From Flavobacteriaceae bacterium (GTDB taxonomy: Bacteria; Bacteroidota; Bacteroidia; Flavobacteriales; Flavobacteriaceae), in NCBI GenBank assembly GCA_026988395.1, contig JALSLI010000091.1, positions 1 through 53,504 on the forward strand: a stretch of DNA of 53,504 nt, in the 5' to 3' direction. The notes under the pieces were generated by a model. That model was given only the letters and a program-made list of their open reading frames with translations, ran no database searches and was not told the DNA's origin. The translations under genes were made by a program, and so were the position numbers. Shown here piece after piece: positions 8,387 through 9,814 of the stretch; positions within the stretch are counted from its first letter, which is position 1; the number at the start of each line of letters is the position of its first letter.

Positions 8387-8611
8387 ATGACTTTACCAAA
8401 ATATTTACTTGCAGATAACAGTAATTATCCTGATGACCACTATGTGATTCATCTGGAGTTTCCGCGTTTTATCTTAAATCTAAAAGATGATTCAATTGAG
8501 TGGTTAGAAGTTTTTTCGGTTGAAGACCAAGAAGAAGTTACCAAACAAATAGCCGAATTAATCGATGAGGCAACACGCTTTTTTGATGAAGAAATGGCAA
8601 AATACGATTGA
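8387..8611 (+). CDS. Small acidic conserved protein of unknown function
   Basis: A 74-residue protein beginning three bases after the epimerase stop, therefore probably translated with it. It has no signal peptide or membrane segment. The first half is mixed (YVIHLEFPRFILNL) and the second half is a strongly acidic, probably helical stretch with VEDQEEVTKQIAELIDEATR. I recognise it as the kind of small hypothetical protein common in Flavobacteriaceae genomes but know no function. It ends the plus-strand glycan cluster; the next 162 bases contain no gene, only the promoter of the TIR/PIN module. Confidence 0.75.
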   Translation: MTLPKYLLADNSNYPDDHYVIHLEFPRFILNLKDDSIEWLEVFSVEDQEEVTKQIAELIDEATRFFDEEMAKYD

Positions 8612-8720
8612 TGAATTAAGATTTAAAATTAATTAAGTTCAATACTCAATAAAATATAAAACGGAAAAGCAAAAGAACAACTAAAGCTATTTTTTTGCAA
8701 ATATTTTTTTACGTCATTTC

Positions 8721-8748
8721 TTGTATCGTATTATTTATGCTATATTTG
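8721..8748 (+). promoter_or_regulatory. Promoter of the TIR/PIN module (TTG-N17-TATATTTG)
   Basis: TTG at 8721-8723 and TATATTTG at 8741-8748 are separated by 17 bases, a full match to the Bacteroidota TTG-N17-20-TAnnTTTG promoter. Transcription would start near 8753-8756 and leave about a 20-base leader before the ATG at 8774. It is the best promoter match I found in the window and lies directly before this accessory pair. Confidence 0.7.
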
Positions 8749-8773
8749 CAGTAATGCCGAAAATATAAAGGAT

Positions 8774-9268
8774 ATGAAAAATGTATTCATTACATACAAT
8801 AATAACTCAGAGATTGGAGAAAATACAGCTCTAAGAATGCAAACACTTTCCAATTTATATGGATTTTCAGTTTTTTTACCTTTTAGAATTGGTAAATCTA
8901 CTATTTCCCAAGAGACAAAAGAAAGAATAAATAATTCTCGTTTTATTTTAGCTTTCTCAATTGGTAAGTATTCTAAAATATTAAGAGATGAATTAGAATA
9001 TGCATTGTCAAAGAATAAGCCAATCATAATTATATACGATAGGAAAGAAAAAAATAAAATCCATTTTCCAAACAAAAATAACGTAAAAGAAGTGTTAATT
9101 GATTACTATAATACTGATGAAGCTTTACATCAAATATCAAATTTTTTAGATGAACAATTTAATGATATTAAATTAAAACAGCAAAAAAACGAAAATGCAA
9201 TTGGAACTGCACTTGTTGGCATAGGCCTTGGACTATTGGCGTATTGGACTTTATCTGACAGCAAATAA
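8774..9268 (+). CDS. TIR-like domain protein with C-terminal membrane helix
   Basis: A 164-residue protein. Residues 1-125 follow the order of a TIR fold: strand one KNVFITY, a helix followed by GFSVFLP, then ERINNSRFILAFSIGKYSK, and a helix DELEYAL whose Glu73 falls where the NADase glutamate of TIR domains sits, followed by KPIIIIYD. Residues about 140-160 (NAIGTALVGIGLGLLAYW) form one hydrophobic helix near the C-terminus, which could anchor the domain facing the cytoplasm or drive oligomerisation. The PIN gene begins six bases after the stop, so the two are one operon. Similar Rossmann-like folds (nucleoside deoxyribosyltransferase, SLOG) are alternatives. Activity is inferred, not shown. 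Confidence 0.6.
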   Translation: MKNVFITYNNNSEIGENTALRMQTLSNLYGFSVFLPFRIGKSTISQETKERINNSRFILAFSIGKYSKILRDELEYALSKNKPIIIIYDRKEKNKIHFPNKNNVKEVLIDYYNTDEALHQISNFLDEQFNDIKLKQQKNENAIGTALVGIGLGLLAYWTLSDSK

Positions 9269-9274
9269 ATCAAA

Positions 9275-9814
9275 ATGAAGCTATTTTATAAAGCTGCTAT
9301 ACTTGACACTTCTGTATTAATAGTTTTATATCATTTAAATTTGTTAGAATATTTGAATTTTTTCTATAACACTATAAGAATACCTAGAAAAGTTGAAGAA
9401 GAGTTCTTAACAAAACATAAAAGCCATAAAGAGCGAAGCGAGAGATATCGGTTTCTCTCTCATTTTTATAATAATAACAAATCTTGGTTTATTCCGTGTA
9501 ATGAATATAGTTCTGATGACATAAAAATATATTTATCTCAAAAAGGAATTGATGCCGGCGAAGCAGAAATTTTTGCTCAAAATCAAGCATTAGGCAATAA
9601 TCACGAAATATTACTTGATGAAAGACAAGCGAGAAAACTTGCCAAATCAAACAAAATTCATCACCACGGGGTTTTGTTTATTCTAGCAAATTTAGATGTG
9701 AAATTTAAAGTGTGTGATTATTTTGAAGCAGTAAAAAAAGTAAAAATAGAAATGAAAACCTATTTTTCTGAAGAAATAGTAATTGAAGTTTATAATAGTG
9801 TAAAAGATAATTAA
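9275..9814 (+). CDS. PIN-domain (DUF3368-like) nuclease
   Basis: A 179-residue PIN-domain protein, longer than a usual VapC toxin and closer to DUF3368-type members. All four expected acidic metal ligands are visible: Asp11 in AILDTSVLI, Glu42 or Glu43 in VEEEF, Glu96 in DAGEAEIFA, and Asp115 in LLDERQARKLA. PIN domains are magnesium-dependent ribonucleases and many are toxins. No antitoxin gene lies next to it; its partner is the TIR-like gene six bases upstream. The pair sits between a glycan cluster and pdxH with no visible mobility gene. The fold is well supported; substrate and biological role are not. Confidence 0.8.
   Translation: MKLFYKAAILDTSVLIVLYHLNLLEYLNFFYNTIRIPRKVEEEFLTKHKSHKERSERYRFLSHFYNNNKSWFIPCNEYSSDDIKIYLSQKGIDAGEAEIFAQNQALGNNHEILLDERQARKLAKSNKIHHHGVLFILANLDVKFKVCDYFEAVKKVKIEMKTYFSEEIVIEVYNSVKDN

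Follow-up and report, generated by a model that had tools for sequence, protein, structure and literature searches.

Our analysis of a 53,504-nucleotide stretch of Flavobacteriaceae DNA (the window, taken at its full length) identifies a conserved gene pair in which a short TIR protein with a hydrophobic C-terminal tail is encoded immediately upstream of a putative PIN nuclease. We favour, albeit with somewhat less than even confidence, a reading that sees the pair as a toxin-antitoxin-like unit of two genes, one that probably serves abortive infection, with PIN as the toxin and TIR as its controller. TIR proteins are known to act as NADases, to make signals or to serve as scaffolds, and PIN toxins to partner small DNA-binding antitoxins. 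The parts of the pair are of known kinds; their combination and placement are new as far as our literature searches reach. No two-gene TIR+PIN unit was found in the open-access literature searched (weak evidence, subscription papers and most preprints being outside its scope), and the word TIR is absent from the accessible part of a 2009 survey of toxin-antitoxin partners.

Conservation and distribution of the TIR-PIN pair

Nine clear loci encode a tailed TIR of this type (the window's own, G208, G212, G253, G447, G636, G784, G791:C37 and a Leptospira interrogans plasmid), and at eight of the nine a PIN gene lies directly downstream (7/8 without G212, a twin contig of G208 whose proteins are the same in our alignments). 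The two-gene TIR/PIN unit that an initial annotation of the window had proposed is therefore conserved, and the possibility considered there, that the pair is absent from all other genomes, did not hold: PIN-bearing genomes come from four Bacteroidota families (labels f1, f27, f53 and f67), joined by the one Leptospira plasmid. In all seven non-redundant pairs the two genes are spaced by -14 to +9 nt, with overlaps of 4 and 14 nt in two of them. Strong PIN matches (E below 1e-15, own included) number four among 395 Bacteroidota genomes, and all of them sit beside a TIR. When distances among seven TIRs were compared with those among their seven PINs, the two agreed (r=0.85; 4 of 5040 permutations as high, the identity included), an agreement which shows co-inheritance rather than binding. 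Flanking genes differ among the pair loci, the twin contigs G208/G212 excepted, and no third gene common to them was seen (both judged by eye).

The pair is rare and patchy in its distribution. Strong TIR matches were obtained in 5/395 genomes of the phylum Bacteroidota, in 2/329 of the own family (own and G636), in 3/98 of the order of G447 and in 1/111 of the genus of G253; five further genomes from the own genus (70-94% complete) yielded none. Weak TIR matches outside the nine clear loci (L006, L049-L051, L053-L063 and L076, with E above 1e-7) include proteins that are longer or resemble nucleoside deoxyribosyltransferases and that have no adjoining PIN (L049, L055, L059-L061; judged by eye). 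Two weaker TIRs, each with a tail, also lack a PIN beside them (G790 and G791:C19; L066:1489-1956, - strand, E 1e-4, and L067:1492-1947, + strand, E 9e-7); both were included in alignment A4 and kept outside the nine-locus count.

Searches of other collections added little to this picture. A plasmid search found TIR and PIN each in a single record, that of the Leptospira plasmid, which was also the only one recovered with the G447 and G791 TIRs; the G253 TIR matched none. A genome contig collection gave no match to PIN and only two Bacteroidetes MAG contigs with alignment A3, equal in length to those of G208 and G212. Neither TIR nor PIN nor the Leptospira plasmid stretch matched any phage record, and viral contig scans with single proteins and with alignments A1, A3, A8, A9 and A10 returned no relative, each scan consisting of one to six short peptide patterns that may miss distant relatives. 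NCBIfam and PHROGs gave no informative match.

Layout of the window locus

Both open reading frames of the initial annotation, a TIR-like one of 164 residues six bases 5' of a PIN one, are in place on the same strand with a gap of 6 nt (Table 1), and so are the flanks, for which it had named a glycan cluster and pdxH: 5' of the pair lie a UDP-GlcNAc 2-epimerase gene and then a 74-aa ORF, 3' of it lies pdxH. The 74-aa ORF (8387-8611), which sits between epimerase and pair, has no Pfam match over cut-off, and it is not found beside pdxH in 12 relatives. pdxH itself was recovered in 12/12 relatives searched, but with none of the other window neighbours within <=1.5 kb of it, so that no empty site is demonstrable at the window locus. 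Further along, from 14170 to 43000, runs a long series of apparent metal-handling genes (ORF starts, judged by eye) for efflux pumps, a P-type ATPase, multicopper oxidases and a cation diffusion facilitator.

Table 1. Coordinates of the TIR-PIN pair in the window and of the TIR-DUF2971 variant
Feature	Position	Strand	Comment
Possible Bacteroidota-type promoter, TTG-N17-TATATTTG	8721..8748	+	Ends 25 bases 5' of the start codon of TIR
TIR gene	8774..9268	+	164 aa, probably tail-anchored; hydrophobic tail about residues 142-160
Glu73 codon	8990..8992	+	Position computed from start 8774; catalytic-glutamate position of TIR NADases
PIN gene	9275..9814	+	179 aa, PDC-S70 / DUF3368-type
TIR + DUF2971 genes	L004:1495-3021 (G253)		3 nt apart, no PIN

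A small antitoxin concealed in the interval 8612-8773 was considered and rejected: apart from the TIR gene, which begins just 3' of this interval, there is no + strand ORF of at least 20 aa that starts here. As for the full Bacteroidota promoter claimed at first, the pattern TTG-N17-TATATTTG, which reflects the Bacteroidota-type consensus, is indeed present, but on the + strand of the AT-rich window it occurs 8 times against 8.2 expected under a Markov model. With a frequency that equals chance, the match is a fitting site and not evidence. The distance from the first base of the TAnnTTTG half to the TIR start is 33 bases in the window, 25 in G208 and 26 at the G253 locus; upstream of the TIRs of G636, G447, G784 and G791 this half was not found.

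Domain assignment of the two proteins

On its own the window TIR stays below the Pfam cut-offs (ThsB_TIR 18.0 bits, cut-off 21.2; TIR_2 17.5, cut-off 28), but 2/4 relatives scanned singly pass theirs (L010 with TIR_2, 31.9 vs 28; L004 with TIR, 24.6 vs 21.3; L002 and L037 remain below) and TIR_2 is matched by 7/11 of the family (E<=0.01, best 1.2e-15), Nuc_deoxyrib_tr by two of the eleven (best 0.0085). Among PADLOC models the window TIR matches ThsB best (2.7e-6), whose model the four scanned relatives match weakly (0.0028 to 0.03) or not at all. Searched against the PDB, the TIR family profile finds ThsB first (1.9e-4), together with another putative signalling protein, the TIRs of tir-1/SARM1 and some designed proteins. 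Glu73, the glutamate to which a conserved position had been ascribed, is identical in 11/11 alignment rows and aligned to the Glu of tir-1 ('..WVHKEL..') and of ThsB ('..LREEIDYG').

The predicted TIR model (pLDDT 76.7, pTM 0.75; five models span 55 to 77) was built on an input alignment of three sequences, two of them from twin contigs. Structure comparison assigns it a TIR/deoxyribohydrolase fold, with Z scores of 10.8 for MilB (a CMP N-glycosidase), 9.9 for the IL-1RAcPb TIR, 9.8 for a C. elegans TIR chimera and 9.2 for SARM1, so a fold of a wrong type, which might have undone the TIR-like label, did not emerge. As Z is about 9-11 for MilB, DNPH1 and TIR domains alike, the fold alone cannot pick between TIR and nucleotide hydrolase. 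A nucleoside deoxyribohydrolase instead of TIR was rejected, as the structures tie and the profiles of the relatives mostly name TIR; the TIR family named at first is thereby supported. The C-terminal membrane helix of the initial annotation is present as well (predicted at residues 139-162), albeit as the least hydrophobic of ten, the 17-residue hydropathy maximum being 1.72 in the window TIR and 2.02-2.60 in nine relatives. Because all ten non-redundant members carry such a hydrophobic C-terminal stretch, the TIR protein is probably tail-anchored in the membrane.

For PIN, a DUF3368 assignment fails with the window protein itself (no Pfam match at E<=0.01) but holds for 3/8 PIN members (E<=0.01, best 1.2e-4). 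In PADLOC the window PIN matches five models of PDC-S70 (best 4.3e-17, with no curated cut-off given), which is a PIN nuclease by its description in PMC12988326. Four acidic metal ligands had been noted as present; in the alignment Asp11, Glu43, Glu96, Glu98 and Asp115 are identical in 8/8 rows. The PIN model is weak (pLDDT 61, residues 78-129 below 50), too much so for comparing active sites, and its top structures are PINs (SMG6, VapC) with Z only up to 5.7; by sequence, the PIN family profile found no PIN chain in the PDB. At seven loci PIN measures 168-204 aa and no other domain was matched, the window PIN (179 aa) being free of SIR2, SLOG, Macro, TPR and GreA/B-C matches. One PIN relative, L010, matches PF20698 at 4.9e-5, under its cut-off.

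TIR in the place of an antitoxin gene

Of 30 weak PIN places found, ten were inspected, and two (L011, L012) were excluded by eye as not PIN proteins. Directly upstream of the weaker PINs lies UPF0175 in 7/8 inspected loci (Pfam 1.5e-13 to 1e-23) and an HTH-M78 protein in the other one; four of the eight PINs are DUF3368 by Pfam (L013, L022, L025, L029), the rest being judged by eye. COG2886 (UPF0175)-PIN is a described toxin-antitoxin pair (PMC2701414, PMC6929052). Upstream of the window PIN, UPF0175 is absent and the TIR gene is found instead. With UPF0175 5' of the next PIN relatives, the TIR gene thus occupies the antitoxin gene's place.

The ninth clear locus differs in what follows the TIR. 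In G253, a genome of the same family as that of the window, the gene behind a tailed TIR encodes a DUF2971 protein of 338 aa (E 8.4e-12; Table 1), and the genome holds no PIN match at E<=0.01. The best PADLOC match of this DUF2971 protein is the defence candidate PDC-S31 (2.3e-7). A swap of this kind, seen at one locus only, would fit a controller able to change its toxin, as Panacea antitoxins do (PMC10440598).

Genomic surroundings

A type I restriction-modification operon points away from the pair, divergently, in G208 (and its twin G212), the G784 pair has the gene of a type IIG enzyme at a distance of about 3 kb, and the neighbourhood of the G253 variant contains LmuB-like and PDC-S73 genes as well as a phage integrase. 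An N6-methylase gene occurs within about 8 kb at 2/7 chromosomal loci, where the numbers of such genes in these genomes lead one to expect 0.15 (P=0.008; the distance was picked after the loci were seen, with G212 and the plasmid excluded and the G253 variant included). By eye, no recognised defence neighbour is found at the window, G447, G636 and G791 loci.

On the Leptospira plasmid the pair follows peptidase genes, and five related plasmids (fetched of six matching at that site) carry other small genes there, which makes it a variable cargo site, one that may be phage-like. More generally, Leptospira plasmids of one replicon type (L037:7890-9102, L089-L093) share this site behind an M15 peptidase gene, with differing small genes. 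Restriction-modification genes at 2/7 chromosomal loci and the variable plasmid site are no more than suggestive of a defence role for the pair.

Discussion

How might such a unit work? According to the toxin-antitoxin-like reading, PIN would be the toxin, a metal-dependent RNase (as judged from its family) that stops growth by RNA cleavage, and TIR would fill the antitoxin slot, tethered to the membrane through its C-terminal helix, where it may bind PIN and hold it silent. Infection or membrane/NAD+ stress would then alter the state of the nucleotide-binding TIR pocket, conceivably via NAD+ binding, cleavage or TIR self-assembly, and this change would release or activate PIN. What leads us to TIR as controller is the toxin-antitoxin-like position and overlap of the genes, a PIN without sensor, the nucleotide pocket of TIR and one swapped partner; a short PIN without any other matched domain favours direct control by the TIR partner. 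The conserved adjacency amid differing flanks, the agreement of TIR and PIN distances, the UPF0175 genes upstream of weaker PINs and the N6-methylase genes near two loci also speak for this reading.

Several observations run against TIR as controller. The invariance of Glu73 exceeds what a pure inhibitor needs; it implies that the TIR pocket matters, so that, going by conservation, TIR may be an enzyme in addition to a holder. The window locus is without recognised defence neighbour, and the weaker tailed TIRs of G790 and G791:C19 come without PIN. Since the pair has no DNA-binding component, it lacks the autoregulation that type II pairs normally show, and we know of no TIR protein that acts as an antitoxin. 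A bolder version, which we regard as doubtful, is that a membrane TIR controls interchangeable toxins, having taken over from the DNA-binding antitoxin of a PIN RNase (with DUF2971 as its partner at one locus). An immune domain that handles NAD+ would then directly hold and release an RNase at the membrane. If true, this would be a previously undescribed type of toxin-antitoxin system.

Mechanistically, the main alternative is a Thoeris-like path: TIR cleaves NAD+ on infection into an ADP-ribose-type signal and this product activates the PIN RNase, with the cell killed or arrested. In its favour are the invariant Glu73, aligned to the glutamates of tir-1 and ThsB, and the leading place of ThsB in the PADLOC and PDB searches. 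However, the ThsA effector has a SLOG sensor domain (PMC9503650) and PIN is short with no other domain matched, ThsB matches fade in the four scanned relatives, and a membrane tail is needless for a maker of a diffusible signal. We consider this path unlikely.

A stress-response or addiction unit without any phage role, be it a module for maintenance or one that regulates RNA of the cell itself, strikes us as rather improbable, too. The four loci without recognised defence neighbour (own, G447, G636, G791) would suit it, as would the Leptospira plasmid, where addiction would pay. Against it stand the restriction-modification genes at two loci, the LmuB-like and PDC-S73 genes around the variant in G253, the variable plasmid site and the patchy distribution.

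Quite unlikely to our minds are two effectors in one operon, with TIR depleting NAD+ at the membrane, PIN cutting RNA and the switch encoded elsewhere. Active-site residues are invariant in both proteins, and TPR-GreA/B-PIN conflict proteins have TIR as one of their variable effectors (PMC8195603). Such an operon would, however, combine two harmful enzymes without a neutraliser and, as no third gene common to the loci was seen, its trigger would need a host factor. Finally, that two unrelated genes adjoin by mere chance, for which the lack of TIR in other genomes of the own genus might speak, is so improbable that we reject it, refuted as it is by the co-occurrence of PIN directly 3' of TIR at 8/9 clear loci.

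Returning to TIR as the controller of PIN, a TIR in the antitoxin slot is a simple, testable claim on TIR domains controlling a toxin, and the pair is easy to test because it consists of no more than two genes, each about 500 bases long. A compact, mobile-looking TIR+PIN pair alone would directly link TIR immunity to RNA cleavage.

Among known systems, some TPR-GreA/B-C-PIN conflict proteins likewise bring together PIN and TIR (PMC8195603), but there one protein carries them along with TPR and GreA/B-C, whereas here two short, separate proteins do without these domains. PDC-S70, whose models the window PIN matches, is a phage defence candidate of PADLOC and is described as a single gene, validation being pending for most such candidates (PMC12988326); in contrast, the PIN type of the window has a fixed TIR partner. 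The Panacea (PanA) network resembles the pair in that a constant controller goes with unrelated toxins (here PIN, and DUF2971 at one locus), yet the Panacea domain is absent here and the swap is known from G253 alone. Thoeris (ThsB + ThsA) shares the two-gene design, a short TIR with a conserved Glu plus a putative effector, and the weak ThsB matches; it differs in that the effector in the window is a PIN rather than a protein with SIR2, SLOG or Macro matches and in that the window TIR has a hydrophobic tail. In the COG2886 (UPF0175)-PIN (COG2405/DUF3368) modules, the next PIN relatives by search, the PIN gene likewise comes second, right behind a small partner gene, but the small HTH-type antitoxin of those modules is replaced here by a TIR with a hydrophobic tail.
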